Assembly (NCBI GenBank): GCA_001598975.1
Contig: BBXU01000651.1
Location: 30,015-94,014, forward strand
Reading direction: 5' to 3'
Source: Parachlorella kessleri
Taxonomy: Eukaryota > Chlorophyta > Trebouxiophyceae > Chlorellales > Chlorellaceae
Length of the DNA: 64,000 bases
Shown: positions 8,618 through 32,300 of the stretch, piece by piece
Numbering within the stretch: position 1 is the stretch's first letter
How the letters are laid out: each line of letters starts with the position of its first letter
The notes under the pieces: generated by a model
The model's database searches: none
What the model was told of the DNA's origin: nothing
The model's input: the letters and a program-made list of their open reading frames with translations, nothing else
Translations under genes and position numbers: made by a program

Positions 8618-11600
8618 ATGGCGTGGGGGCGTGTTGCGGCCTCGGTTGCCACGCAGCTGGCTAGGCCTAGCTCCCCTTGGGCACGCCTTCTTTCAACTGC
8701 AGCTGCGGCAGGACCGCTTAATTTTTGCATTGTGGGCTCCGGACCTGCGGGTTTTTATACAGCCGACAAGGTGGCCGCCTCTAACTGTTGGCTGATGGGT
8801 TGCTCCTAATATCTGTACAGTATTGATGTTGACCTGTCAACCTCGTCTTGAACCTCTTTCTTGCTTGCAGTTGCTGAAAAAGTATGGGGACAGGGCAAGA
8901 GTTGATGTGGTGGTGAGTCCACGCCCCTGATGACTGCTGCCTCATCTTCAGCCTGCGGCTTTGATCCCTTCAATCCCGAGTCTATGGCTCTGTGACGTAT
9001 CCATATGTCTTGAGAGTTTAGACGTTCCAAGTATCAGCACCTTGGCGTTTGCAGGAGGCTTTGCCCACCCCATTTGGCCTGGTCCGCTCTGGGGTGGCGC
9101 CAGACCACGCAGACACCAAGGCAAGTGACTACCCTACATCCTGCCCTGCAAACACCAGAAGGAATACGCCCAGTCCCGTCCCATTGCATAGAAGCCCGGC
9201 GTGGTTGCATTATGGGGCACTTTCCATTTCCAGTTCCTAAATGTCCTCTTCTTGTTACAGGTGGGGCGGCCTCCGCATTCCCACCCTTCAGCACATGCCC
9301 ACTTTTGCTGTTCTGACGTGTCATCCTGCTCCTTAGCCAGGCGCCGGACACGCAGCCCGGCCCGGTCATGCACCAGCGGCAAGTTTCACTACTCCTTTGT
9401 GGTCCAGAACGTGATCAACCAGTTCACGCAGCTGGCTCAAGATGGGCGCGTGGGCTTCCTGGGCAACGTGCGAGTGGGGAAGGACCTGTCGCTAGAAGAG
9501 CTCCGCGCTCGCTACAACGCTGTGGTCCTCTGCTACGGCGCTGAGAGCGACCGGCCGCTGGGTGTGCCTGGGGAGGTGCGTGGTGCCGGCACAGGTGGTG
9601 GTTGCGCGCGGTGGTGCTGACTGGCAGCCGGGGTGTTCATGACAGGTGCCCTGCACCATGGACGGCGTGGAGTTGATGCTTCGGCCACAATGCGGGGAGA
9701 CATGAGGTTGTGTGCTGGGGGGCCGCTGTCCTGTACTGCTGGGGCCCATTGAAGCTGCTGGATCGCTTCATTTTGTTACTACTGTGTGTGCATTTGCGCT
9801 CGTGGGCAGGGCTGGAGCCTGCACCAATGTGCCCTGCAACCTCTACATCGCAGTACGATGCTGCCTCTGCGCCATGCCTATTGTCACACACCTTGCCACC
9901 CTCCACACAACTTGGCTGTCTGCATCCCATTGCAACAGAACCTGACGGGCGTGTACTCTGCACGCGAGTTTGTGTGGTGGTACAACGGCCACCCACATTA
10001 CGCTGGCCTCCCAATAGACCTCTCCAAGATGCGGCGGGTGGCCATTTGCGGGCTGGGCAACGTGGCCGTGGACTGTGCGCGGGTGCTGCTGCAGGTGGGC
10101 CCCTGCCGCACTGATCTTGCTGTTGGGGTACAGAGTGTTGGTCCTGATCACTCATAAGCAAGCAACTATGACCGGCTTGGGTCTTTCTAAAACATGATCT
10201 TTGGGCCTTACTTGCGGGGCATAGTCGCAAGATACCCTGAGACGAGACTTTGCGCAGCAGGTACTCTTCTGTTGTGCTGGCATGCGGTCCATGAGGAGCC
10301 ACGACGGGCAGACTGAGACGCTGCACCCCACGACCCCTGCTGCAGCCTGCCGATGCGATAGCCACGACTGACATTGCCAGCCATGCGGTGGAGCAGCTGA
10401 GGCGGAGCGCTGTAGAGGAGGTGCACCTGGTTGGGCGGAGAGGTCCCGTGCAGGTATGTGCAGCAGTGGGGGCAGCTCGGGCCAGCCTGCCCACAAGCTG
10501 ACCTGGAATACAGCCACATGCACGTGGTGGCTTGCTCAATAACCTCATGGCCTGCGGCCGCCGTGCTGATGCGGCCGGCCTTCCCATTTGCAAACGCATT
10601 GGTGTGTTTCAGTCGTGCACTGTTTGAGTCCTGCTTGGCTTGGGAGACCGTGCGGGGGAAGAGGTCGACTGGCGCGGTTTCCCGCAGAGGTACAGCCAAG
10701 TACCCCTGCAGTTACCCTGTAGTACCAAGAACAGAGCCCGCCTTGCCGCAGGCGGCCTTCACCCCGAAAGAGCTGCGGGAGGTGCTGGGCCTGGACAACG
10801 TGGCGGTGCGCATGGACGCCGCTACATTTGCGCTGAGCGCGGCCGACGAGGCGGAGCTCAAGGCCACGCGCATGAAGAAGCGCGTGTTTGACATCCTGTT
10901 CAAGCAGCTGAAGGAGAGCAAGGCGGGGTGAGCCGGGGCGCGGGCACTCCCTGGGTGCGAGCACACGTACTGAGGGCTGCTGCGCCATGAAAGTGTGCTC
11001 AAGGGGGTTGCTGTGGGTTCCCAAGCCTGTCTGCAGCGTGTTCCAGCTGGGGTGGAAGCAGTCCCTGTGGCGAGGTTTGAAGCGGCGGGCGTGCAGCTGG
11101 AGAGGCTTGCCCGGTGCGTGTCATAGATGCCTCCCTGCCCACACAAGAGTGCCGCTACAGGCGGCCCCGCTGCGTTGCGCTTCCGTCCCTTGTAGACCCT
11201 CCTGACTGTCTGCAACCCGGGTACTATATTGGCCCCGCTGACGAGCCCCATGCCGCCCTCGATTATCCGCGCCCTGCTGCCCATTTTGCGCAGGGCCAAG
11301 ACGCTAGCTCTGGACTTTTTGCGGAACCCGGCTGAGGTCATAGGTGATGGCCAGGGCCAGGTCAAGGCGCTGAAGCTGGAAAAGACGCGGCTGGAGCCGC
11401 CGGCAGACGGCAAGGGCGACCAGAAGGCAGTCGGCACCGGGGAGTTTGAGACGATCGAGGTGGACCTGGTGAGTAGGGTGGGTTGTGGTAGATGGTGGGA
11501 GGGCGGGACACAGAAGGGCGGCAGCGCAGGGCACAATTCTTCAGGTTCAGCTTATCTTCACAAGATATGTTAGTGTATCATGCAACAAGCCCCAACCCTG

Positions 11601-14304: not shown

Positions 14305-15841
14305 ATGCCTCCTCTGGCCATGTTTGCACGGGGTGAGGATGGCAAGGGCGACGCAGCACAGAGCACTCAACTGCCCCAGCGCTGGAAGCAAGCCGTGGAG
14401 AACATGAACTCTGCGCTGAGCAGTTTCGAGCAACTGGCACAAGCCTTGGACGGGGCCCTCTACCTCGACCAAGATGAGTGGGACAAGGCCTTGCCGACAC
14501 ACAAGTACACGATGGCGGTGCAGGTTCGTGTGAAGGGGTCTGTTAGCGACGATTCAGCTGATGTTGCAGCTGGGCTCCCTAGCTCGGGGGTGCAGAGTTC
14601 CCTGCAGCGCACCCATTGAAACGTCCACCCGTTGGAACCTGTGCCTCTCAGGGCCCTGGCTGCAGCCGTTTGACCTTGCTTGGCGTGTGGGTGCTGCAGG
14701 TGCAACACCAGCGGATTCAGCAGCTAGAGGACCAGCTGGCAAGAATCCAGGCAAGGCTGGCGGACAGTGAGCGGGGCCGCAAGGCGGCTGAGCAAGAGGC
14801 GCAGGAACTGAACGCAGAGCTGGAGAACAACGCACGTGAGTTGCAGGACTCTTTTATAATGAAAGGAAAGGACCCGCTGGTATTGAGGGGCTGCTCAATA
14901 GCTCCTGGCCCTCTCATCAGCTGGCGTTGAGTTTGGGGGCCAGGCGGGCCTGGGGGGCGGCTGCGTTCCTGATGCTAACCAACCTGCGCAGGTGTCAGGC
15001 TTCCTTCTGTCTTCCACGAATGAAGCTGGGTTCTTGCCTGGGTCAGCTGCGCCAGAGCAAGTGTTAAGAGTAGCTCTGTGAAGCCACGCAGGTGTGTTCC
15101 AGCTGCACTATGAGGAGCTGGCACGGAAGGAGAAGGAAATAACTGACTTGCAGGCAAGTTGGCGGCTTGATGTTGCATGTATCAGAGCAGGCTGTGGGGG
15201 CTGCCATGCCCCAGGCAGGGGGTTGCCGTGGGCACGAGTAAGAGGCATGGTGTACATGCAACAGTGAAACAGTCACATGCACATGGCATTCGCAACCTTC
15301 CAGATATGCCTGTACCGAACGCCTGGTGGTGTTTGCCATCCTTTTGCTTGCTTACATGGTGGCATCCTCACTGCAAGCTGCTGGCCACATGCGCTCCTCC
15401 TCCCAGCGTTGGAGCCCTCCACATCATCCACCTGCCACGCTCGTGCAGGCTGTGGTGTCAGCGCTCTCGCTGGGCGGCAGTGCAGAAGGGGCAGGCGGCG
15501 GCTTTGAGCAGGGCGGGAGCGACTGTGGCGGCAGCAGCCCGCGAGGGAGAGGAGGAATACCTGGGCAGGCACCCAGCAATATGGGTGGTGAGCCCGAGCT
15601 TGGGGCTCTAGGCCACAGCAGTGGGCTTGGCAGTCTAGGCACTGGCGAGACTGAGCTGGGAAACCTACTAGGAGCTGCTATCGAGTTTGGAGATCTCAAT
15701 GACGGTGGCATTGGGCTTCCGGGCAGCCCACTCGGCACTGGTAGCGGGGCTATGGGTGATAGCGCTGATGAGGACCAGGAGGTGGATGAGCTGGTGGGTG
15801 CTATGAAGGAGTTGGTAGAGCTGGAGAAGCGCACTCGGTGA
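14305..15841 (+). CDS. Coiled-coil protein of unknown function
   Basis: I do not recognise this family. There are four exons: 14305-14523, 14700-14835, 15092-15153 and 15449-15841 (810 nt, 269 aa). The start MPPLAMFARGEDGKG is the first ATG in an open exon; an upstream non-coding exon is possible. Residues about 20-75 are helical (RWKQAVENMNSALSSFEQLA). Residues 74-140 form a heptad-like coiled coil (QHQRIQQLEDQLARIQARLA, then ELARKEKEITDLQ). The last exon encodes a Gly/Ser-rich low-complexity tail, then an acidic helix (DEDQEVDELVGAMKELVELE) and stop. Joins keep phase. Intron 3 uses a GC donor (CAG|GCAAGT). It could be a structural or adaptor protein of cilia, Golgi or cytoskeleton, but nothing in the sequence fixes that. 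Confidence 0.7.
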
Positions 15842-16380: not shown

Positions 16381-18264
16381 CTAAAGCACCCTAGCAGGTG
16401 CCGGAGGCTGCGTGCTCAATGTGACCGCCAGCAGCACAGCGAGCAGTGCAACCCCAGCTGCCCCCAAGGCAAGGCCTGCCCAGCCCTGGCCGGCTTCTGG
16501 AGCATCGCCATTTCTACCGCCGCCACCATCGGGAGCAGCGCCAGCAGCCCTGGGGGCCACAACCTGCGGCTGCAGCCCAGCGAGTGCCGGCTGCTGCTGC
16601 TGCCCCGTTTGCAGCAACCCAGCTGCCGCTTGTGGCTGTGCTGCTGCTGCAGGCTGTGCCGGCGCCACCGCTAGCTGCTGCTGCTGCGCTCCCAGCAGCT
16701 GCTGCCGCTGCTGTGCTGCCGCCATGCGTTGCTGCTCTTGCTGCACGCAAGGGTTGTGAGAGCAGCGTCGGCAAGGTGGGAGACTGCGTGCTGTGTAGGC
16801 CAGCTGCAGCAAGATTTGTGGGGCGACAAATGGTGGCCACAAGCCAGAGCAGTGCCTGCGCTGTGGGCCGCCCTTCTCCCTCCCCCCTCCTTCATCTGCT
16901 GCACCATCTCTGCCATCTCCCTACTGAACAGCAAATGTACATAAACCAGTTGCTGGGCAGTCTGCCTGACCTTGCCGCGGTACAAGGTGGTTCTCACGGC
17001 TGAAGACTTGCCTGCTCCTCAAACTGCTGCACCAGCTCCGGGAAAAGCTTTCTGAAGGTTGGGTTGCGAGTGTTGAAGGCCAGCGACTCTCGAGCATACT
17101 TCTCTTTCTCTGGCTTGGTGCTGCTGATGGCACCTGGGGCCGGAGAAAAGCAGAAAATAAAAGTTCAGCTGCACGTGCTCTTCCAGTGGCCTTAGCTTGT
17201 TCGGGGAGAGAACTACTGGATCAGAGCTCAGGCAAGCCCCAGAGCATAACTGCATGGCCCCTGTCACCACAGTTCAGCGTCACCTTTGTTCGCACGACCA
17301 CCCACCCTAAATAAAAGCAGGCGTGTCGGGAGTCACAAACTGATTTTATGGCCCAACACATTTGGCCTAGCCCTAAAGGCAGCTTTTCCCTAGGGTGTTG
17401 GGATGCCTTGTGATCCCCAGCTCGGTTAAATGAGCTTCCCAGCCGATCTGCCCCACAGCTACTTAGCGAACCCGGTGGGATCACAGATTAGCTCAGCCTA
17501 CAGAAGCATTCCTGAATACTGCGCAGGCGGAACCGCATCATGCTCACCTGTGGTGTGCCCTGTCTCATGCATGAAGGAGTAGAGTCCCGTCAGAATGGTG
17601 GACACACTCCACATGGGGTTCCAGCTCTCTGGGTGGAAGTCGGTCATTGATAAGCACAGCCGTGTGTTGGTTGCAAACCTGGGGCAAATTCCAAGCAAGC
17701 CGTTTAGGCATGAGGTGCAGCTTAAACCTCATGCTAGATACCACCCCAAGTCACAAAGCAGACTACAGGAGCAGCCACATTGCACACCCCACATGCCGTC
17801 TGGCTGATGTGGGGTGTGCCACTGCAGTACATTTTCACCGCAGTGCCACAGAGCATCGCTGCATCCAGCCCTGGTCAGTACATTTACACCAACCCCTCCT
17901 CTGTAAAATGTGCATCCAACAACAAACACCTGGCGCTCACCGGCCGTTGGGGGTGATCATTTGTATGCTGGGCGGCTTGTACGGGTACTGTGTGGGGAAG
18001 GTGACCTTCCCATGGTAAAGACCACCTGCATATTCGCTGTCGGGCTGTCCCTCCAGCACAAAGTGCCACTCGAGGATATTGGAAGGAGAGGGGTGGGCTT
18101 TGATGCCTGGCACCGGCTCCTGCACAGACAAGGAGGGTGCAGGCAGGCTGGGGCGAGGTTCTGCCCAGCTCGTGGACACGTCTCAATATGCATATGAAGA
18201 ATACCTTGACTATGGCTTTGTATTCCTTTTGCAACCTTGTCAAGGCTGCCTTGCTTGCGGCCAT
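16381..18264 (-). CDS. ER-anchored ubiquitin-conjugating enzyme E2, UBC6/UBE2J2 (plant UBC32-34) class
   Basis: This tail-anchored E2 works with membrane E3 ligases in ER-associated degradation. There are five minus exons: 18264-18205, 18119-17941, 17678-17548, 17133-17012 and 16740-16381 (852 nt, 283 aa). The start [18 protein letters not shown] is typical. The UBC fold includes [20 protein letters not shown], the FP..YP..PP motif and TPNGRF. The active-site Cys88 is in [18 protein letters not shown], a signature of the J class. The segment [18 protein letters not shown] follows. The C-terminal exon is a Gln/Ala-rich linker ending in one membrane span ([19 protein letters not shown]) and a short lumenal tail, as expected. 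The last intron (17011-16741) starts with GC. A minus-strand TGTAA (16339-16343 on +) lies about 40 bases past the stop. Confidence 0.94.
17782..17819. repeat. Perfect 13-bp inverted repeat in an E2 intron
   Basis: GCACACCCCACAT (17782-17794) and its exact reverse complement (17807-17819) flank a 12-nt loop. It sits in the intron between E2 exons 2 and 3. No function is evident. Confidence 0.75.
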
Positions 18265-18607
18265 AAGTGCGAGTTGCTAGGATGCTGGAAAGCCAAGATC
18301 AGGCAGAGAAGACTTGCATACTTTTACAGGTCCCCCTTGACTCTAGAAACGAACCTATGTCGAACTGCCAAGGTGGCACGGCAGGCCTGGCACGCTGATT
18401 TTGCGCTCTTGCTCCAAAACAGCAAAGCTGCAAATGCTCCCAGTACATTTCATGGAACTCATTTACCAAGAACTTCATTCACTGTGAAACCTGGCGTGTA
18501 CCTAGTCGCCTAGCCTGCATGCCTTGACACAACTACGCACCTGAAGCCCACAGATGGATCGCCATACAGTGGTAACCTATGAAAACTGATCGACCTTTCC
18601 CTCTGAG
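18265..18607. promoter_or_regulatory. Divergent promoter region, E2 (-) / ABC fusion gene (+)
   Basis: Only about 340 bases separate the two start codons on opposite strands, so both promoters and 5' UTRs must share this stretch. I recognised no specific element. Confidence 0.5.
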
Positions 18608-21600
18608 ATGCTGATCATAGCAGCAGGACCAGGCCTTACCACACTGATGGCTCCCCAGGTAGGTGACAGGTTTTAAGTGCCGCTCAGCAACAAGGGGACT
18701 GTGGCTTTCTTTGCTCCCCTTTGATGAGCATATACCCAGCACTGACTGACTGCAGGGTCGGCAGGCAAGGTCAAGTGTGGGCAAGCCCTGCCAGGTGGAC
18801 TTGCGCTTCCGCCGCCGCTTCCTTGCACTGCTGGGGCTGCTGCGCCCCTACCCAGCGCTCTTCTTGGCGGCCCTGTCCATCCTGGAGTCCGTGGCTGTGG
18901 CAGAGGGTAGGCTTTGGGATGACAGTGGGATGAGGGACTGCTTCAAGCAACTGTGCCACTGGTCTGCCCTTACCATGGTCCCATCCTGTGGTTCTTCTGC
19001 TCACACAGCCTATGTCAGCAGCTCGCCATTTCCGGCAGCAGCACAGCCTTAAGAGGCCTGCCTCTTCCACTCTGTGACTTGAAGCCATGCAGAACAACGC
19101 ATCACCATGCCCTCCTCTGACTGCAGTGGGCAAGGTCGCTGGCTCCTTCTACCGCATTGTGGTTGATGACCAGCCTGCCCAGCTGGCAGGGACCATGCTG
19201 CATGCAGCGCTGCTGTATGGTGCCTGCTGCGCCATTTACGCGGTCAGCACGTGGCTCAGTCAAAGCCTGGCAGTGAGGTGAGCACCGGCTGGATCCCAAG
19301 GATGAGGAGGGCTGCTTGCTCTTTCGTTTTTACATATGACTGGCTAGCGTACCTGGGGGAGGCATGCCCTACTCCCGCACAAGTCGGTTGCCCTGGCAGC
19401 CATGCTTGCTGGGTGTCATTCGCTGTCGTGTGTACAGGGCTAACCCTGTCCCTCAGTCGATCTGCCCTGGTTGCTCATTTAGTACCGGTCGTGGCAGGAC
19501 AGCTCTTCTGGCCTTGCAAGGAAGGTGGCATTCCCTGTGTTCGGCGGTGCAAATGCGGACTAGGCACAGAAACAGTTGTTGTCAGTACGTGCGTGTGTTG
19601 TGTTGTGCAGCAGCTTGAAGGCTAGGCGTCCCTCAGTTTCCATGATGCAGGTGGCGAGAGCGGCTGACATGCCACCTGCAGACCTTGTACTGCAGCAAGA
19701 GCGCCTTCTACCACTTGCAGCAGCAGGTGGACAACCCCGACCAGCGCATCGCTTTTGGTGAGCAAGGAAAACCACATTTGACATGATGCTGCGTTCCCAC
19801 TCCGGAGCGATGAGCCACGGGCTCTGGTTGACCGGCTTGGCTGCAGCCGTCTGACCTTGCGATGCGCAGGATACATGCCCCATGTCACCTGGGGTTTACA
19901 TTGAGCGTTTGTAGGACCTGATCTGCTTGGCCTGGCTCTTGACATCCTACACCCCCCTGTGGCCCTACCACCTCGTTCCCTGCAGACGCGGCAGCGCTGT
20001 GCGACAGCATGGGCTCCGTAGTCAAGGTGGCTCTGGCTGCTCCCTTCAAGGTTGCCTACTACGGCTGGCTGACGGAGGGCTACATCGGGTGGAGGGGCCT
20101 GCTGGCCGTGTTTGGCTTCTTCTGGATGGGGGCTGGGCTCCAACGGTAGGGCGCGGGAGGAGGCGCGGGTCAGGCGTGTGCCAAGATTCTGTGGGGTTGT
20201 GGGTAGGGCGGCAGGTGGTGTGCACAAGGGGGAGGGCAGATTGTGAACCGTAGTGACTGGGCTCGATGCAGGCCTGTGGGGTTGTGCTTGCACCTGGGCT
20301 GGGTGGCGGGCAAGGCGTGGAGCACAGACGGCTGCAGGAGCTGCAGGCAAAGGCGTGCTGTGCTGTGCTGCTCTTTCTGCTCTTTCTCGCCCTTCAGGAG
20401 GGCTGTCTTGCCTGATGTGGGGGCCCAGCACTGTCACCAGCTCAGCGCACCTGCAGCCCCTCCCGGTGTCGCGGCACACCTGCGGGCACCTGGGGGCAAG
20501 CTTTGCGTTCTTAGACTCCCTAACGGCAGCCACTAGAAACGGCTTTACACCATTCAACTTGCCGGTCCTATGTGGCTCACCGCCCAGCTGCTGGCACTCG
20601 CTGCCGTCACCCACTCCCCGGTCCTGTGCTGCTGCCTGCACAGGCTGGTGATGGCGCCCGTGGCGCGGGCAGTGTGGCGGCAGGAGGCGCGAGAGGGGGA
20701 CCTCCGCTTTGCCCACCTGCGCCTGCGCGAGTTTGCTGCGGAGGCCGCGCAGTACGGGGCCGGCACCGCGGAGGGGCAGCACCTGTCAGAGGCGCTGCAA
20801 GCCGCAGTTGAGAACCAGGTGTGGCGCCGACATGCACTGCCTTGCCCACGAACCAGCAGCATGGGGGAGATTCAAGTCGTGATGTACATTGCCAGTAACC
20901 CTTACAGAAGCCTTTGCCGGCTTGGGTGAGGTGCGCTATGGAATGAATGTTACACCTGCCGGTGCTGACTGCACGTGCCTGCTGCCTTGCGCCGCTCACA
21001 GCGACGGCTGGTGTGGTGGAGGGTGGGGCTGGCTGCCACCACCCGCGGCATCGACTACTGCGGAGCCCTGCTGAACTACATGCTGGTGGCTGCGGCAGTC
21101 TTTGCAGGTAATGGTGGGTGTGGGCGCAGGGACTTGAGTGCTGCGTGTTGCTAGGGCGCTGGCCCCTCACAGCAGTGCACGCCCTGTGGTCTCCCTCCAC
21201 AGTTGCTGGTAGCAGCATGGGTAGCAGCAAGGCCTTGCAGGCCTGTTGATGCACAAGGGAGCTGGGGGACTGCACCAGTGGACGCGGCCTAGGTAGCTTT
21301 ACCCTCCCAGCTTGCTCGGGCCCCGAGCCCGGCCCCTTTCTTGGGAATGCAAGTGTCAGGAGGGTGGCAGCGGCTACTCCGAGCTGCCAGAGCTTGAATC
21401 AAGCGCAGACATGAGGGTTGGGAGGCACACACTTGCGAGCACTCGACCCCGACCCCTTGCTGCACAGCAGGCATGGCGGGCGGCGGCGACAGCGGCGCGC
21501 TGGCGCAGTGGGTCTCCAACGCATCCTTCGCCACTCTCATGCTCATCTACTCCTTCACAGAGCTGCTGGACCTTTCCCAGCAGCTGTCAAGCATGGCAGG

Positions 21601-24600
21601 TAAGCAGCGGCGCTGTGCATGCTGGCCTGTCTGAACGGCCACCTGGCCTGGGCTGGCCCCCATCCTGGGCCTGTTCCCGGTGCACCTGTAGTTGGCACGT
21701 AGAATAGGAGTATTGCACGATGGAGGCAGCGCAATTGCACGGTGGGGGGGGTCCCTAGTCGGTGAGGGGCTATGGCAGGCTACTCCAGTGGCGTGTTGCC
21801 GTCCTCGACCTTGTGACCTAAGTCGGCACCATGGTTGTTTGTATAGGGTAGGGTTGCCTTGTGTGGACAGTGAAGGTACCACTGGTATCTGATTCATTTA
21901 CTTGCTCGCTGAGGTGTCCACCTTGGGCGGACTCCCTTGGACTTAGGCAATGCCACCTTAGCGCACCCGCGTGTTGCAGGTCTCACTGCCCGTGTTGGTC
22001 AGCTGCTGGAAGCCGTGGCATGCATGGAGGGCACCACGACCACGGATATAGCTGCGCAGACGGGTTGCCATGGCGGGGGCAACCCGCAGCGCCGCACCGG
22101 CAGTACCGGATGCAGCCACATTGAACCATTAGGGACTAAGGCAGCTGGGGTCCCCTCAGTGGCCCAGCAGGGCGGGTGCCCCAAGCAACACCGCGACAGG
22201 GGTACGCAGCAGCAGGGAACTGGCAGGCGCTGGCGCTCTGGCTGGTGGACCTGGGCCGGCAGCGGGCGGCAGCGGGGACAGGAGGGGTACCAGCACTTGG
22301 CGGGGGAGCCCCCAGGCATGGGTCACAGGCTGGAGGCCCAGCCATCAGCTGACGGGGAGGAGCTGCGCCCTTCAGGTGCCCACGCCCGCACTGCGCTCCT
22401 GCTGCTGCTGCTGCTGCTGCCGCTCCTGGTGCTGTCTGCTCCTGCCGGGGGATCTGCTCACTGCTGCTGCGTGTGCTAGGGGCTGGCCTCTGCTGCTGCG
22501 TGCCTTTCTCCCGGCGCGGCTGCTGCTGTGCAATGGTCCGTTCGCATCCTTGAGAATTGACTGCGCTCCTACACACACTCCCAATGTATTTACCGAATTC
22601 TAGTTTTGGATGGCACTCGGACACTGCCCTTTATCCCCCGCTGATGGAGTGCCAGCTGTCATCGCCACACGAGTGCCATGATGTGTCATGCTTGACAGAA
22701 GGCTGTGTTGGTGCCTGTACAGTGCTGGCCCAGCTTCTGGATGGCCCCACCAGCCTGCCAGGCGCCCTGCCAGATGGTTCCACCTTGGAGTTCTCCATTC
22801 ACCAGCTCAGCAGGGCGTTACAGCACGACTTGGCAGCCATCTTCCCGGGAGAGGCCCGCCTGCGGCCACAGCCGACCCCGCAACTAGAACACAGGCAGGA
22901 TCAGCGGGAGCAGCAGCAGCAGCAGGCAGTTCATGCCGTGCACCCGGCAGAGCACACTGCATCTGCTTGCCAGGATAGGTTGCATGCACCTGAGCAGCAG
23001 AGCAGAGAAGTGGAGGAGGCGGGGGAAGGCTGCTTTGGCCGTGTCCTGGCATGCCTGACCTTCCAGTTTGCGGAGGGCCAAGTCAGCCTGGCACCAGACA
23101 GCAGCGCTGCCACGCTCGACAAGGTGAGCTTTCCTGGGAACAGTTGCGCTGTGGTGGTTGTGGGTCGACAGTGTGTCCTGGATATTAGGCTGCTCCTTCG
23201 TAAGGGGGGAGGGATCCTGGGTGATATCGTAAGTGTTGCGGTACACTCTGCGACCACATTAACTTAGTCTCACGAGATGGGGGGGGGGGGGATGCGAGGC
23301 AAGTTGGCTGGTCCTGGTTAGCGCAGTGAAACTCGCAGTTGCAAGGCCTAAGCCAGTGTGCAGCGTGCCTGCTGGTTGCCTCCATGACTTGGGGGCTTCA
23401 AGTGCACTGTTGCCACATCAGCTGCACTACTACATCATCAGAATGTGCCACGGACACCATCAACACAGGCTGCGAGATGAGCCCTGGTTGGCGTGCCTCC
23501 CCCCCTCCCGCATGCAGGCTGCCCACGAGATGGACCGCATGCTGGACAACTTCCTAAGATGGGAGCGCGCCGTGCGTGCCGGGCTGGCGCAGCAGGGACC
23601 TTACTGGTGCAACTCCATCGACCCCCGCAGGCAAGGACAGCATTCACACACCAGGCAGGCACTGCAGCGAGGTAGGGAGTCTAGAGGATACAAGGCATGC
23701 AAGTTGCATCTGTACTCAGCCGCTTGCAGCACACCGACGACCGTGAGGGTCGCTGCTGTGCTGTGCTTTGCTGTGGCGTAATTCACAGGGTGCTGCTTGC
23801 GCTCAGGCCTCCCACAACCGTGCTTGCCTTCACAGCTTTCCTGTCCAAAGACATGTAGACCCCATTGCTTGGGCTCCCTTTCTTGCCTCACTGAGCTCTG
23901 CCTGAAGGGCCAGGTGTCTTACATCATGACCAACCTACTCTCCTCCCTCTCCCCCTTCATCATAAGATTTCTTATTCAGCGTGGCAGGAAATGCGATGAG
24001 AGAGAAGGTATGGGTATACTGGGCTGACAGGGTTTTTTGTTGTTGCCGTGTGCCTGCAGCGGCATGGCCCTGCATGGCCCGCAGGGTGCCCGGTGGAGTG
24101 AGGTGGCTGCCGCCCACACGCTCCTTGGGTACGAGAGGAGGGATGCCGACATCTGCCCACTGGTGCTCCACCCTGCACATGGTGAGCATAGGTCAAGGCC
24201 GGGCACCCCTGAGGAAACCTTTCATACTGCGTTGGGCCTGTGGGTCGGGTCCTCCCGTGGTGGATACTTTGCGCTCGCCTGCTGACTGGGTAGGCGCCTG
24301 GCTGGCATGATTCAGCCAACCTGGCTACTGTGCAGTGCTCCTTCCGCCCCTCACCCAGGTCGAGGAATCTGTGCTAGGCAGTCTTAAAAGTCTTGCTCGA
24401 TGGCATGTGGTGCTCCACAGCTCAGGTGGACAGTATCTGTGAGAGCTTAGTGCATCTATTGATGTTCATCACTTCTTGCCCTGCTCGTTCCAGGGACATC
24501 CGCCTACCCGGTGACCCTCTTCACCACCGCGCCGTTGACGGCGCTGCAAGCCGCCATTGCAGCTGCCTGCTGCCCCACCACCACCTCGTCTCCTCCTGGG

Positions 24601-26054
24601 AGCCTCTGCCCCGCCCTTGGTGCACCCCGCGCCACAGGGCTCCCTTTGCCGGCTGCCATTGGGGCAGCTGCATGCCCTCCCAGCCAGCAGCCAGGCCCTG
24701 AAGTACGACCACCATTACCAGGGCCCCCTCCATCAGCTCTTTCCCTCCTCCCGCCCTCGGCATCGCCTGCTCAAGCATTGCAGCCGACGTGCTGGTCGCA
24801 GCAGCCCCAGCAGCAGCAGGCAGTGCTGCAGCTGTGTGAGGTCACCCTACGGTGCCCGGACGGCGCCCTGGCAGTTCAGCGCCTTTCTCTGGCGCTGGCG
24901 CCAGGTCAGCATCTGCTCATCAGCGGCCCCAACGGGTGCGGCAAGTCCACGCTGCTGCGCGCGCTGTGCGGCCTGCACCCGCTGGAAGCTGGCTGGGCCA
25001 AGGCTGGCCAAGCGCTGCTGGCAGCAGTGCCGTCAGCAGCGCCTCTAGCTACACCTCAGTACCCAGCAGCAGCAGATGAACCCGGACCGGTCCGCATGTC
25101 GCAGACCTCCCTTCCGATTGGAAGTTTGGGCGGCGGCGCTGGAACTGCGCTGCCTCAGCCAGCTGCCGCCGATGTCATGGTGGTGCCGCAGCGGCCGCTG
25201 GCGGCGCCAGGCGCAGAGCTGTGGCAGCAGGTCGTGTACCCCGACACGCGCCGCCCGCCAGCGGGGGAGCTCCGACGGCTGCTACAAGCAGTGGGCCTTG
25301 GCTACCTGGAGTTGAGGAATGCTGGCCCTGATGCTAGCACTAGCGCAGCTGCGGCCATGGGAACCGCATACAGCCTGCCAGGGGATGGGTCGGCTGCGCC
25401 CCGCGCTAAGAGCGCTGCGGCACCATGGGGCGACATGCTGTCGCCTGGCGAGCTGCAACGGCTGTCGGTGGCGCGAGTGCTTCACAGGCAAGTGGGCAAG
25501 AGGGCAGCCTTGGCTGGGGTACATAACACACTGCACTGTGCTGACGTCCACAGACAGTCATTGCAGGCTACAGTCGTGCCGAGGAAGGCATGGCCAGGTA
25601 GCTTACACGCTGTGCTCATGTGGCTGGTGGTGAGTGATCCAGGTTTTCATGAAGAGCTAGGAGACTGACACTTGCTCTGCAAATCCTCTAGCTGCAGCCA
25701 CAGACATGTAATCAGTTGCCACGCTTGCGCAACAGGCACAGGTCAGCACGAGTATTCTCCCGGCTAGCCCACAAGGGTGTGGATGGAGCCCATCACTGCT
25801 CCCTAGCTCAGTAAGCAGCTGGGCGTGGTGCCTGCAGGCGCCCCGCTGTGGTGTTTCTAGATGAGGTCACGGCCTCAGTCAGCCCCCATGCAGCTGCCGA
25901 GCTGTACGCTGTGCTGCACGATGCGGGCGTCACCTGTGTCAGCGTGGGCCAGGACTGCGAGCACCTGCGGGGGCTGCACACCCACCACCTGCGGCTAGGG
26001 GTGGCGGGAAGCCCAGCCGGGGAGGGGGGTTGGGAGCTATGCACCCTGCCCTGA
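18608..26054 (+). CDS. ABCD4-like cobalamin ABC transporter with an embedded MMADHC/CblD-like domain
   Basis: There are fourteen exons: 18608-18658 (tentative), 18756-18906, 19127-19277, 19651-19757, 19986-20145, 20644-20818, 21002-21107, 21471-21599, 21980-22375, 22723-23123, 23518-23630, 24060-24181, 24494-25487 and 25838-26054 (3273 nt, 1090 aa). Residues about 20-360 form an ABCD-type membrane domain whose blocks (VDNPDQRIAF, EGDLRFAHLRLREFAAEAA, FTELLDLSQQLSSMAGLTARV) resemble ABCD4 best. Low-complexity sequence follows. Residues about 490-710 resemble MMADHC, the B12 trafficking protein CblD: LEFSIHQL..DLAAIFPGE, GLAQQGPYWCNSIDPRSG, GARWSEVAAAHTLLGYE and TSAYPVTLFTTAPL. The ATPase domain has Walker A GPNGCGKST (832-840), Q-loop VVPQRPL, signature LSPGEL (1003) and Walker B VVFLDE. 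The H-loop His is Gln (SVGQ, about 1057). Exon 13 carries the CblD end and the ATPase in one open frame. Two introns use GC donors. A start at 18647 is also possible. Confidence 0.85.
22399..22425 (+). repeat. CTG trinucleotide run
   Basis: A run of GCTGCTGCTG... lies just after the proposed donor at 22376, in the intron between exons 9 and 10 of the ABC fusion gene. If read as coding it would give poly-Leu in the frame of exon 9, which then hits a stop at 22479. I therefore place it in the intron. Confidence 0.6.
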
Positions 26055-26858
26055 GTAATTGGGAGAAGTTAGGTGAAGCTGGCAGGCCCGTTAGGCTGTT
26101 GGACTTGCCGTCGATGGCCGCACATTTTGAGCAGGTGGCGTTGGCGGCAGGTAGTGCGAACAGAGGGAAAGGTAGCTGTAAGCTGAACACAACATTTGCT
26201 AGCAGGTTTTTACTTATAGTTATCGGATGATAGTGAGTGCAGGTGGCGGCAACAACAAGCTGGGCCGCCGTCCCATGGCCCTCCCTAGAACATATCAGCA
26301 AGCTGGGCAGTCCCTCTTTTGTCAGCACGTGGGTCACGCACAGCTGCCCGCTCGACACGCTAGTACTTATGGACGGGTCATTGCGCCATGTGCCTGGCTA
26401 GACTGGGAGTACCTCCGGTTTGAGTTGTGACGGCGCAGTCCGCCGCCAGACCAGATGTGTGACAGTAAGCACGTCTGTAGGCAGACTCTGTGCTATGAAG
26501 CACAGGATAAGATAGCAAAGTTACACTGCAACCAACTTCGCCAGGTGCAAGCGTTGGAATTCAGTGATGGGGCCCGCATAGCCGACCGGGCCATCAGCGC
26601 ATATATAACCTTTCTTATATGTTTGGTTCTCTTCATCTGACCAGACCCCATTAGGAGCGCAGGAGGGGCAAGATCCGCCGCAGTTCACCGAAAAAGTGCA
26701 GGCAGCCGACGTCAGCAGTGTCATCGCGGATGAATAAACCCAAGATGGGGAGGTAAGATGATCTTTGAATTAGCAAAGCAGGCCAGGTTAAAACTCAGTG
26801 TCGAGTCGCACGCCAAGACCAACAGTTACCGGCCTACCTGTTGCCTAAACCCACCATC
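26055..26858. other. Intergenic region before the acetate transporter cluster
   Basis: This contains the 3' UTR of the ABC gene, with TGTAA at 26178-26182, and the promoter of the first GFY gene. No coding sequence is convincing. Confidence 0.55.
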
Positions 26859-28615
26859 ATGGCAACCTCTGACGCCCAGCGCCTTGAAAGGGCTATCCAG
26901 CTCCTCGATGCACGCTTGGCAAAGTCGGACCTCTTCAATGATGGCACCGTGAAGGTTGTGCCGGCAACTTCAAACGTCGGTGAGTCACCGTCACCCTGCC
27001 ATCTAGTCGAACCTGTGCTGAGGGTCCTTTCCTGCCCCAAACCGCGGTATGTGCTCTCGAACATCGCTTGTTTGCGTTCCGCAGGTCCTCTGGGTCTCTT
27101 TGGCTTCGCGCTCACAACCGCTCTTCTGCAAGTGAGTGCAACATCCCTCTGCTGGATAAGCTGCAACTGCAGCACAGGGTGGCGTATGCAGTGTTCAGCC
27201 TAGCATGCTCCCTGGCTAGGAGACAGAGAAGAGGGCACAGCTGTTTTCTGTGTTTGTCAGAAGTCCCTGCGGCCTGACACAAGTCCCTGGTGTCACTGCA
27301 GGGCCAGTACACGACAGTGGCCGATGGCCCCACCGGTGTTGGCGGCCTGGTTATGGGCTACGGCATGTTCTACGGCGGGCTGGCGCAGCTGATTGCCGGC
27401 ATCCTGGAGTACCAGCGCAAGAACACCTTTGGTACCGTTGCTTTCTCCTCCTATGGCGCCTTCTGGATGGGCCTGTCCTACTTTAACACCGTGAGGACTG
27501 TGGTTAACGGCATCACCCCCCAGATTGCCTCAACCACTGCCGACGGCCTGGTCACCTACAAGGCCCCTGTTGCCGCACCAGTGTCTGGAGAGCGGACTAT
27601 GGTGAGCTTTGCATCTGCCTGATCAAATGCCACTTCACTTGCAGCTGCCCATGCCCTGCTTTCGGGCAGGCTGGTTATTGCAGCTTGACCCCGTGCCTCT
27701 GTTGCTATGTTGGGCCTTTCTGCAGCCACAACTAGTGTGCGTTGGCGGCCTGGGGAGCCCCTATAACTCTTAACCCCCTTCACCAAATCTCCCACTTCCC
27801 CCGCCTGTGTGCAGCTGATTCTGTGGGGTATTGTCACCTTCCTGTTCTGGCTTTGCACCTTCTCCATGAACCTGGTCACCTCCGCCCTCTTCATGTGAGT
27901 ATCGTGCCGCACTGGCAGCTCTGCTTTAATGCTGTTGCCATGTGACATGCGCCCCGCCTCTTGCTGGCCGATGCTTGCTGCGCGGTGCCTAGCTGTGGGC
28001 TTAGACCCGTAGGCAGGCCTGTATCGCTCTGCTGATTGTGCCTCTCCAGAAGGTCCCCCGTGGAGTGGGGCCTGGCCTCATATCTGCTGCTCTCCTGCTC
28101 GCAGCTCCCTGGCCCTGCTGTTCTGGTTCCTTGCCGGCGGCCAGCCCCAGTCCACCCACATGAACTGGATGAAGTTCACCGGCGCCTGGGGCTGGTGGGT
28201 CGCGTTCCTGGCCTTCTACGACGGCGCGGCTGCCCTGATGAAGGAGGTGTACGGCAAGGTGAGAGTTTGGAAACCGCTGCATTGGGTCCCCTACTGCAGA
28301 ATGCTCACTACCTATGGAATGATCGCGTGTCGCACCAGCCTGTGCTTGTGCCGGTGTTGTTTGCCTGGTGCACGGCAACCCTTGCTGCAGCAAACTGTTG
28401 AGCACCTTTGTTGACTACTACTTGGTGTGGTAGACAACATCCTGCCTCGTCACAGCATGTCTCACCCGTCCGGACATCACCAACCCAGCTTTATTCTTTA
28501 CCTGCAGCAAATTCTGCCTGTCTTCCCCTTCAAGCCCATCAACCGTGTGTCTGGCGGCAACTTTGGCACCCAGCGCCGGATTGACACCCAGGACCTGGAG
28601 GAGGCCAAGCAGTGA
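26859..28615 (+). CDS. GFY: GPR1/FUN34/YaaH (GFY) acetate transporter, copy A
   Basis: This belongs to the AceTr/SatP family of six-helix acetate/succinate channels; in Chlamydomonas the GFY proteins are linked to acetate assimilation. There are six exons: 26859-26979, 27085-27131, 27302-27601, 27815-27894, 28105-28258 and 28508-28615 (810 nt, 269 aa). [20 protein letters not shown] leads into the family motif [18 protein letters not shown] (the N-P-x-P-L-G-L variant). Then come [53 protein letters not shown] and [20 protein letters not shown], all membrane helices. The C-terminus ([15 protein letters not shown]...DLEEAKQ) is shared with copy C. Every join is in phase. Confidence 0.94.
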
Positions 28616-29662
28616 GCCTGGCCTCCCTTGTTTGGTGTTTTATTTGCTCTGAGTCCAGCCCCAAGGCTTGGTCTGCGAGGACCGCAGAGTTATGTTTTTG
28701 TGCGTCGTTGTAGAACGCATGCTCATTGTGGCTGTTCCTGACCTAGCCACCTTGTATATCCCTCTTTTTCAGCGGTACCGGGTGGCGGCCATTGTTTCGT
28801 GACCACCATGCCTTTAAGTTTTCATGTCTTTTCTGCTGTGGCATATGCCATTCTCTTGCCCATACTTCCTAGCTGCTGCTTGTTGGTCTGCCGTTTATGT
28901 CTTTATGCTGAATTGCATACCAGAGTGATAGCAACTTGCCTTCCCATCGCACGGTTGATCCGTGCCCCCGATTCCTGTGTAACATCTTCACTGGTACATG
29001 CATTATGGCAGGTCTGTCCAGGGTCTCTTGACCTGCGCAGCCTACAGGATGGCAGCCTGCCCTGATGCAAGAGCCTGCAACCTGGTCTTCCACCATCAAC
29101 CTACACTGCAGTGCAGCCTGCCAAGCATGAGAGGACCCCATACTGCGGTCAACCCCTCTAGAAATGGGAACTGCATGGGCTACTAAACAGCCGACCCCTT
29201 GTCGCGTACAGCCCCCATGACTCTCACATTTAAAACGTCTACGAGCTGGGACCATGCAAGTCATTCGACGCTGGTAGCTGAGGTGCTCTATAAACAGATC
29301 AACCAGCTTAAGTCTGCAAAGCCTTCACGTGGAGGAGGAACGTCAAGGTCCCATGTGCCTACGCGAGGCGCGCCCGTGCTTCTGATGGGGCGCAGGCGCC
29401 CTTGCACACAACCAACCGCAACCGGTTCGCTTCCGCTCCTTTCGTATCTCGTGCATACTTTATTACCCCACCTTTACGACCCTGCGTCACGGCCTCCTGA
29501 CTTAGTCAACCCCTGAGAAGGGCGGCTTCGGTGTCACTTCCTCCTTGTTCTTGTGGTTAAGTGCCCTGTTCCCTGACAAACCCTTGACCCATATCCTTGC
29601 AAAATTGTCGCAGCGTGAGGACCCTCAGTGTCGAGACACGCTCGGGCGCCTTTCGACACAAC
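28616..29662. other. Intergenic region between GFY copies A and B
   Basis: About 1 kb. A TGTAA at 28978-28982 may end copy A. I see no gene; the rest should hold the copy B promoter. Confidence 0.5.
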
Positions 29663-32300
29663 ATGGCAACCAGCGTCACAACAGCAGTGGCCGCTCCCCC
29701 GATGGGCCACATGGGCAGCACGGGCGGTGATGCCCAGCGTCTAGAGAGGGCCATTCAGTTGCTAGACGCACGACTGGCTCGCTCTGACCTGTTCAATGAC
29801 GGCACAGTGAAGATTGTGCCAGCCACCTCAAACGTTGGTGAGTAATCCTGTCTGGTGCTCAGACGGGCTGGAGCTTCTGCTCTTGAGCAGACGAAGTGAA
29901 GCAAACCCTTTACCACACGGTACCCAGGAACTCCGTCCCGACAGCTTTAGTGAGGATATCTGCCAAGCTTGGTGTGCTTGCTGTGCAGGTCCGCTGGGGC
30001 TCTTTGGCTTTGCCTTCACCACAGCCCTCCTCCAAGTATGTCAACCAACAACAGCCGTGTGCTAGACTCGGCGCTAGGCGGCTATTTTGGGCGCCGTGCC
30101 TTGCCTTGTTCTGTGCATACAGGATAGCTTGAGAGTGCCTTACTAGTGCCTTTTATTCTGCTGAGCGGTGCATGTGCCGGCTGTGCACTATTGGACCACC
30201 GTTGAACCGCAAGTACAAGCAAAAGGGCTAGGTCTTTGAGATGTAGACGGGTGTTTTAATAAGGGTCTTTCACACCAGGCCAGCTGAAGTGTCAGACTCG
30301 TCGCTGCAGGGCCAGTACACCACTGTGGCTGACGGCGCCCCCGGTGTCGCGGGTTTGGTTTGGGGCTATGGCATGTTCTATGGCGGCCTTGCGCAGCTGA
30401 TTGCTGGCATCCTGGAGTACCAGCGCAAGAACACCTTTGGTACCGTCGCGTTCTCGTCGTGTGAGTAAGGCCAGCCAGTCGCGGTTGAGGAGCGGGTGGT
30501 AGTGTCTGCATAATATTTAGCGGTGAGACCTAGGCGTAGCTGCCCAATATGGGCTTGCACTGGTGCTTCACGTTACCTCTTTCCAGCGGAACCAGTCAGC
30601 CCACCCATAGTGTAGCTGCGTTGGATCCGAGCAGCAGGTGCATCCTAAGAAACTCACTTCATTAAACATTCGAAATTGACGGGAGGATGCTTACTCACCG
30701 GGACGGGTGTGGGTTTGTTCATCGCAGATGGCGCCTTCTGGATGGGCCTGGCGTACTTCAACACCATGAGGACGGTGGTCAATGGCATCACCCCACAGAT
30801 TACCTCAGCTGGTACCAACGGCGTGCCCATCTACAAGGCTCCCGTGGCCGCACCTGTCTCTGGAGAGCGGACGATGGTGAGCGATCAAGACTTGGCCTGT
30901 GAAAGTGCCAACCATGCCAGGGGCAGGCAGCCCGATGTGTGGGTTGCCGTCTTCCCTTTTGCTTTTTTTTAATTTTAGCTTACCATAGACTTAAGGGCGT
31001 GCCCGGGGGTGGTAAGGGGGGGGCTATCATGTGTGCACCAGGTTGCCTGGCTGCAGCGTGACCGGGGCCAGCAGCACGTTGGGTTAGCTCTATTACCATG
31101 TGTAAGCATGACGTCTCCTGAACTGATCATACCTCCCTACACGGCTTGGAAGGGGGTGACATGAAAGCCAGCCATGCGTGTGTAAGGTTGGTGGCTCAGC
31201 CATCTGCCGGCCTGAGCGCCACTGTGCTGCGTGTTTGCTGCTGCAGCTGATCCTGTGGGGCATTGTCACCTTCCTGTTCTGGCTCTGCACCTTCTCCATG
31301 AACCTCGTCACCAGCTCGCTCTTCTTGTGAGTGTCGGGACAGTGCTTACATTTTTACACCTACTTGCCAGGACCCAGCCTTGCTGTCCTGCCAGGACCCT
31401 GTGTGGTTTTCATGCGGCGTCATCCTCCCATCCTGCACAGATGGAAAGGGTATGTTATGCCTTATCCTCCCTAGTTGCTGAGCCAGCATTGGTGGGCTCC
31501 ATTGTAGGGCGCAGCAGGGAGCAGCGAGTACAAGTGGCCATGGTTGCACTGGCTTGCATGTCACCTGTACTTGGTTGCATAGGCAGCCTGATGCCTGTCC
31601 CTAGCATTCTTGACCACTGTCTTGCTTGACCCGCGCTGCGCAGCACCCTGGCCCTGCTGTTCTGGTTCTTGGCGGGCGGCCAGCCCCAGTCTTCCCACAT
31701 GAACTGGATGAAGTTTGCGGGTGCCTGGGGATGGCTTGTGGCGTTCATCGCCTTCTACGATGGGACAGCTGCCCTCATGCGGGAGGTGTACGGCAAGGTG
31801 AGAGAGGCTGCTTCATGGTCCCGCCCCCTTTTGGCGGACTGCCTGTCCAGGGTTGCTGTTTGCTTTGCCACAATTTGTTTGAGGACCCTGATCTCTGGCC
31901 GTGGGGGGGCCTGGCTGCCGGCTACCTGTCAGTGTCCAAGGAAAAGGTGGCCTGTGCAATGCCAGATTTGTCAGGGTGGATGCCAGTCCACCTAAGCTGA
32001 ACATTGCATCTGCTGCCCTGCCCTGCATTGAGCGTCACAACACACTCGAGCACCCCCGCGGGAATAGTGCTCGACTCCCGAGGCCCCGTTTCACTTGCAT
32101 CCCAAAACTGCTAGGCCATCCCTGGGTGCTGACCCTGCCCAACTCCTGCCCCTCAACCTTCCTGTTCGCAGCAAATTCTGCCGGTGTTCCCGTTCAAGAC
32201 CATCAATCGCATCAGCGGCGGCAACTTTGGTACACAGCGCCGCATCGACACCACGGACCTGGAGACAGGCAGGGAGGTTCGGCCCAAGTCCAGCCCTTAG
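29663..32300 (+). CDS. GFY: GPR1/FUN34/YaaH (GFY) acetate transporter, copy B
   Basis: This is a paralogue of copy A in the same orientation. There are seven exons: 29663-29837, 29989-30035, 30310-30460, 30728-30876, 31247-31326, 31644-31797 and 32172-32300 (885 nt, 294 aa). It differs from A and C in three ways. It has an N-terminal extension ([19 protein letters not shown]). An extra intron (30461-30727) splits the Tyr codon of [10 protein letters not shown], which is unbroken in A and C. The C-terminus also differs ([16 protein letters not shown]). The channel core is conserved: [38 protein letters not shown] and [20 protein letters not shown]. It probably transports acetate or another short carboxylate across a membrane; the organelle is unknown. 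Confidence 0.93.

Follow-up and report, generated by a model that had tools for sequence, protein, structure and literature searches.

A stretch of 64 kb of Parachlorella kessleri DNA (GenBank assembly GCA_001598975.1, contig BBXU01000651.1, positions 30,015 to 94,014; hereafter, the window) very probably contains, at positions 18608-26054 of its + strand, a single fused gene for an ATP-binding cassette (ABC) half-transporter of ABCD4 type, in which a domain resembling the B12-handling protein CblD (MMADHC) sits after the last transmembrane helix and before the ATPase. The best explanation overall, in which we place about even confidence, is a B12 exporter with a tethered CblD-like domain that serves as a docking site for CblC (MMACHC). 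The window has a G+C content of 59% and no N, and the assembly from which it comes comprises 50.86 Mb in 1642 contigs.

Gene model and domain content

The gene was rebuilt from the raw sequence as 14 exons encoding a protein of 1090 residues with 0 internal stops. The 13 phase-consistent joins of the original prediction were all recovered in this rebuild (13/13); 11 of the introns are of the GT-AG type and two of the GC-AG type, the latter with the donors CAG/GCAAGG after exon 11 and CAG/GCAAGT after exon 13, where the slash marks the exon end. The exons and associated features are as follows.

18608-26054, + strand: whole gene, ABCD4-type transmembrane domain (TMD), CblD/MMADHC-like block and ABC ATPase, from phases, splice sites and Pfam
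18608-18658, + strand: exon 1, start codon and 17 residues, with no homology support
18756-18906, 19127-19277 and 19651-19757, + strand: exons 2-4, ABC_membrane_2 TMD, ABCD4 closest
19986-20145, 20644-20818, 21002-21107 and 21471-21599, + strand: exons 5-8, ABC_membrane_2 TMD, ABCD4 closest
21980-22375, + strand: exon 9, end of the membrane domain (GLTARVGQLLEAVA), then about 113 linker residues
22376-22722, + strand: intron 9, weak splice signals and the least certain join, scoring as non-coding in all three frames
22723-23123, + strand: exon 10, start of the CblD block (GSTLEFSIHQ...AAIFPG) and a Gln-rich insert
23518-23630, + strand: exon 11, CblD core (...PYWCNSIDPR), GC donor
24060-24181, + strand: exon 12, CblD core (SGMALHG...TLLGYERRDADICPLVLHPAHG)
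24494-25487, + strand: exon 13, CblD C-terminus (about 24496-24573), Pro/Ala-rich linker, Walker A, Q-loop and LSPGE signature, GC donor
25838-26054, + strand: exon 14, Walker B (VVFLDE), Gln at the H-loop position (VSVGQ), C-terminus and stop
26177-26181, + strand: TGTAA, candidate poly(A) signal, 123 nt 3' of the stop

This model is least constrained at its 5' end, with the ABCD4 match starting only from residue 26. For the end of exon 11, the GT donor at 23671 was ruled out because the frame of exon 12 breaks, and the GT donors at 23606 and 23678 preserve the frame at the cost of losing the IDP motif or of adding residues that canonical MMADHC lacks. The GC donor at 23630 gives SIDPR-SGMALHG, in agreement with the canonical algal MMADHC described below.

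A Pfam search with the whole protein returned ABC_membrane_2 (PF06472) at residues 53-299 (3.7e-42), MMADHC (PF10229) at residues 609-703 (8.8e-9; 35.9 bits against a curated cut-off of 27) and ABC_tran (PF00005; 3e-15), which bears out the predicted order of three domains on one strand. Among solved structures, the best match of the membrane half is ABCD4 (PDB 6jbj) at 6.6e-52 over residues 26-357, followed by plant ABCD1 at 1.9e-32, ABCD3 at 1.2e-8 and ABCD1 at 7.2e-7, and the lead of 6jbj over plant ABCD1 supports the predicted ABCD4-type identity for this half. The TMD exons had been placed at 18756-21599; the TMD is indeed there, but its exons extend beyond 21599, exon 9 holding both the end of the membrane domain and the linker. 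A hydropathy scan showed six hydrophobic stretches within residues 39-303. The ATPase motifs are found at residues 832 (GPNGCGKST, Walker A), 917 (VVPQRP, Q-loop), 1003 (LSPGE, signature) and 1023 (VVFLDE, Walker B).

CblD identity of the inserted block

The assembly also encodes a canonical, stand-alone MMADHC on another contig (C859:69825-71682; positions 635-2495 of locus L001), a protein of 176 residues in six short exons, which scores 110.8 bits to PF10229 and retains both Cys261 and Cys262. BLAST of the fused block against this protein gave 51 identical positions of 127 and a separate N-terminal match (16/31). The alignment score of the two is 210, compared with 31 on average and at most 63 over 2000 shuffles, which, together with the PF10229 score above its cut-off, supports the CblD/MMADHC identity that had been proposed for the middle block. 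Solved MMADHC chains are matched as well (5a4r, 9.8e-6; 5cuz, 1e-5; 6x8z, 2.5e-4; 9mrs, 5.6e-4), the matched stretch spanning residues 194-283 of the 296-residue chain 9mrs_D.

When all six frames of the window (1618 open pieces of at least 25 residues) were scanned against the canonical algal MMADHC, the frames of exons 12, 13, 10 and 11 came out on top with scores of 94, 67, 62 and 58, the next piece scoring 47; these four pieces are collinear, and all lie on the + strand. The 26-residue CblD tail in exon 13 scores 61, which none of 20000 shuffles reached (best 43). A chance resemblance to CblD in low-complexity sequence is ruled out by the shuffles and the six-frame scan. Exon 13 is, as had been claimed, a single open frame running from the CblD end (TSAYPVTLFTTAPL) through LSPGEL. 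Because the CblD tail and Walker A thus share one intron-free open frame, the fusion of CblD to the ATPase can be read straight from the DNA.

The canonical MMADHC on C859 rules out the fused block as the sole CblD of the cell, and the block appears to be a diverged second CblD copy. In a search of the genome with the PF10229 profile, C859 was the only place found; the fused block was missed, we assume, owing to its divergence and its spread over short exons. A whole-genome scan with the canonical MMADHC itself recovered six stretches at its own locus, exon 12 of the fused gene (3.9e-4) and two others at E values of 0.56 and 0.80.

At the DNA level, 24060-25487 occurs in full only once in the assembly, the only other match being one of 46 bases at 87% on contig C1305. 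All seven matches of a membrane-domain query of the genome fall in the fused gene (7/7), and the ABC_membrane_2 profile gave at least 10 exon matches, two of them in the fused gene, six on C290, one on C258 and one on C1137. Comparison of one exon from each of these other contigs with solved structures showed C290 to be ABCD1-like and C258 to be ABCD3/ABCD1-like, and C1137 gave only weak ABCD1 matches (E 0.25). With this profile and this query, no second, unfused ABCD4 was found in the assembly, which makes the fused locus the only ABCD4-type gene detected there, whereas CblD is found twice.

One gene or two

The membrane domain is connected to CblD through introns only, and the splice between exons 9 and 10 is the weakest link of the model. 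The donor of exon 9 at 22375 (CAG/GTGCCC) scores at most 3 bits, compared with 6.6-12.5 for the 17 training donors, and the acceptor of exon 10 at 22723 scores 4.2, compared with 4.0-13.7 for the training acceptors; both values count against a single gene. An alternative GC donor at 22315, in the same phase, scores 6.3, and an alternative acceptor at 22699 keeps the frame at no more than 3 bits. The splice matrices and the codon score used here are crude, being trained on the fused gene and the C859 gene only, and the training sites were scored by their own matrices.

These weak sites, and the continuation of the exon 9 frame to a stop at 22479, would suit an arrangement of two genes, in which a membrane-domain gene ends at that stop and a second gene, for CblD and the ATPase, starts at 22.55-22.78 kb, the two polypeptides assembling into the transporter. 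However, the tail of exon 9 (22040-22375) has a coding score of 0.09 in the model frame compared with -0.10 and -0.06 in the other frames, which is above the level of introns (at most -0.215 over 80 overlapping windows), and 22376-22722 is intron-like in three frames (-0.24 to -0.38). The noise of this score counts against the model: the linker in exon 13 lies in an open frame yet has an intron-like value of -0.24, and the start of exon 9, although conserved, has a value of -0.06. From the stop at 22479 it is only about 100 bases to the first ATG of the CblD frame, with no intervening TGTAA, the green-algal poly(A) signal. On the + strand, no TGTAA starts within 17903-25706, where about 3.4 would be expected at the rate of the window (28 in 64 kb), although this is weak evidence; one starts at 25707, within the last intron, and one lies 123 nt past the stop of the gene. 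It would also be exceptional for an ABCD-type ATPase to lack a membrane domain, and we regard two genes as distinctly unlikely. A chimeric contig that merges unrelated genes might be suspected in an assembly of 1642 contigs, but a single open frame, free of N, runs from the CblD tail into the ATPase, the exon phases agree over the whole locus, and the canonical MMADHC differs in sequence and lies on another contig, which means that the fused block is not that gene misplaced during assembly; such an artefact is very improbable.

Alternative splicing would make a different use of the same joins. Exons 10-12 (22723-24181) amount to 636 nt and are flanked by phase-1 introns, the phases of exons 9, 12 and 13 match, and the model without them remains open (878 residues, ABCD4-like, 0 internal stops), as would be needed for a cassette that yields a plain exporter beside the CblD-bearing form. 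Matching flanking phases are expected in one of three cases by chance, however, and the final CblD stretch, being in exon 13, would be retained in both forms; we consider such a cassette unlikely.

Proposed transport and docking, and a possible spacer

The transporter is probably B12-related, and the docking of CblC by the tethered domain is conceivable at somewhat less than an even chance. In the proposed mechanism, the half-transporter with its inserted, diverged CblD would form a dimer in the vacuolar/lysosomal membrane that moves cobalamin into the cytosol, so placing two CblD-like domains on the cytosolic face beside the ATPases, where the tethered domains may hold CblC at the transporter exit. 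The separate canonical MMADHC (C859) would perform the cobalt-thiolate hand-over to methionine synthase. In ABC architecture, the segment that follows the last helix and precedes the ATPase lies in the cytosol. The position of the CblD block between these two elements stands as predicted, and the cytosolic side itself we infer.

Several observations weigh against this reading. In the ATPase half, plant ABCD1 (1.2e-36, with two ATPases) and ABCD1 (9.3e-22) rank above ABCD4 (5.5e-18), with the ABCD1 scores summing at least two stretches and the ABCD4 score representing one stretch; because of this ranking, it is the membrane half that carries the ABCD4 assignment. At the H-loop, Gln replaces the His (VSVGQ, residue 1053) that we take ABCD4 to have at this position, and a homodimer would have His on neither side. 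A seventh hydrophobic stretch, at residues 696-714 in the CblD end, makes the topology uncertain, and we would read it as a buried helix of a soluble domain. Within the aligned core, the fused block retains 20 of the 39 positions common to human-type and canonical algal MMADHC. The 19 lost positions include the counterparts of Cys261, Asp223, Lys263 and Trp270, the first of which is replaced by Ile, giving Ile-Cys in place of the Cys-Cys of the canonical algal protein. As to the pathway, a domain of the B12-independent methionine synthase (METE) is found on C994, and methylmalonyl-CoA mutase was not found in the genome, though the same search was positive in 8 of 14 control genomes. Finally, the MMACHC-like sequence on C101 is a single exon (HLCLHPKYGPWFSLRAAVVFD) of 21.5 bits, below the Pfam cut-off of 27.

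Plant ABCD1 likewise shows Gln at or near the H-loop position of its second ATPase in the alignment, and Gln at the H-loop need therefore not mean a dead transporter. Cys261 is the cobalt ligand in the CblC-CblD complex, and its replacement by Ile makes cobalt coordination by the fused domain unlikely. The role that remains for the fused domain is likely to be protein binding rather than cobalt chemistry, and since the canonical CblD role includes the binding of CblC, the tethered domain would most likely be a docking site for CblC. The idea, put forward in the original prediction, that the fused domain hands B12 on is thereby weakened, given the canonical MMADHC elsewhere, the 20/39 positions kept and the loss of Cys261; a direct hand-over is inferred, with docking a more likely role than cobalt chemistry. 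We also suggest, tentatively, that a single polypeptide couples vacuolar B12 export to capture by CblC kept at its exit, so that B12 would reach the chaperone from the membrane without crossing the bulk cytosol, with the soluble CblD serving methionine synthase, and that skipping of exons 10-12 may toggle between tethered and plain forms.

A single fused gene could also carry the CblD-like insert without any B12-specific role, the insert being a spacer that has decayed or been put to another use, and the ABCD-type transporter possibly carrying something other than B12. The lost residues named above, the presence of a canonical MMADHC elsewhere in the genome, the long low-complexity linkers that flank the block on both sides and the Gln at the H-loop are all in keeping with a spacer. 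However, the frame is open through four CblD exons, Y220, W221, I225, D226, P227, S229, G230, L252, G253, C262, H267 and G271 are among the retained positions, the PF10229 score is still above the curated cut-off, and the membrane domain matches ABCD4 best. A spacer is thus rather doubtful, and a B12 exporter with a tethered docking domain remains the explanation that we prefer.

B12 pathway context in the assembly

Many algae take up bacterial B12. In this genome, shown by its introns and by 38 matches to chlorophyll a/b-binding exons to be that of a photosynthetic eukaryote, the B12-activation domain of the B12-dependent methionine synthase (METH) is located on C662. Together with the MMACHC-like exon and the canonical MMADHC, it shows part of a B12 pathway in the assembly, which speaks for the B12 reading. 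With METE present and methylmalonyl-CoA mutase not found, B12 is probably not strictly required.

The MMACHC-like exon is at 39934-40011 of C101 (positions 1501-1578 of locus L041) and reads HPKYGPWFSLRAAVVF. A genome search with PF16690 found nothing at the default threshold and one exon (0.003) at E 10, and no control genome was positive either time. A possible upstream exon of this MMACHC-like gene, at 738-1136 of L041, is without a Pfam match. Matches to the LMBR1 family, to which we take LMBD1, the partner of ABCD4, to belong, are present on C13, C871 and C258. Contig C258 carries both its ABCD3/ABCD1-like exon (3718-3852) and its LMBR1-family matches (27589-30634).

Comparison with known systems

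The algal protein shares with ABCD4, the lysosomal cobalamin transporter (PDB 6jbj, 24vc), the half-transporter layout of one TMD and one ATPase, and its C-terminal ATPase also matches ABCD4 (5.5e-18, as above). It differs in that the TMD match and the ATPase are separated by about 450 residues, the CblD-like domain among them, instead of a short linker, and in having Gln at the H-loop and a low-complexity insert between Walker A and the Q-loop. Plant ABCD1 (PDB 9wfg), which we take to be peroxisomal, has related ABCD membrane and ATPase domains, but it is a full-size transporter of two TMD-ATPase halves without CblD; the ABCD1-like locus of the alga is separate, on C290 (one exon compared).

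With MMADHC/CblD (PF10229; 5a4r, 5cuz, 6x8z, 9mrs), the block has in common the PF10229 match and, with the alga's own MMADHC, the N-terminal motif. In contrast to the free protein, it is tethered, and it carries a Gln-rich insert and Ile for Cys261. Its identity to the human-type chain is 26/89, compared with 39/90 for the canonical algal MMADHC; between the two algal sequences, 37 of 92 core positions are identical, and a comparison by eye showed 0 shared intron positions.

We know of no protein with an ABCD4-CblD-ATPase layout. Searches of a viral contig collection with the exon 13 protein (63 pattern matches, 0 confirmed) and of a genome-contig collection with the canonical MMADHC (128 pattern matches, 0 confirmed) are silent on other algae, as neither collection is intended to hold eukaryotes. 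Judged from its sequence, the protein belongs to a known transporter family and carries a domain that is itself familiar, at what would be a new position.

Neighbouring genes

The fused gene is bounded by a ubiquitin-conjugating enzyme gene upstream, on the - strand, and a GPR1/FUN34/YaaH gene downstream, in keeping with a single gene between them. An exon of the former is found at 17940-18182 (- strand; 6.7e-13), and a hydrophobic stretch in a frame of the same strand at about 16.4 kb suggests, by inspection, a tail-anchored E2 of the UBE2J type. The GPR1/FUN34/YaaH match (26859-27622, + strand; 4.7e-15) belongs to a gene that apparently starts at 26859, about 800 bases past the stop of the fused gene. 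Further upstream, a weak ATG16 match at 14583-14927 on the + strand (1.7e-4; 22.3 bits, below the cut-off of 33.7) may be a mere coiled coil. Frames at 9192-10928 on the + strand have the look of what we take, by their motifs, to be an adrenodoxin-reductase-type flavoprotein, and the three single frames tried there gave no Pfam match.

Significance

The passage of B12 from lysosomal ABCD4 to cytosolic CblC/CblD appears to be an unsettled matter, and fused proteins often reveal partners that act together. If the present reading is true, the natural fusion of ABCD4 to CblD would argue for a single complex in which the transporter and the CblD/CblC module act together, and the fusion would offer a single protein for purification and imaging. 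The finding also bears on the intracellular handling of B12 in algae.

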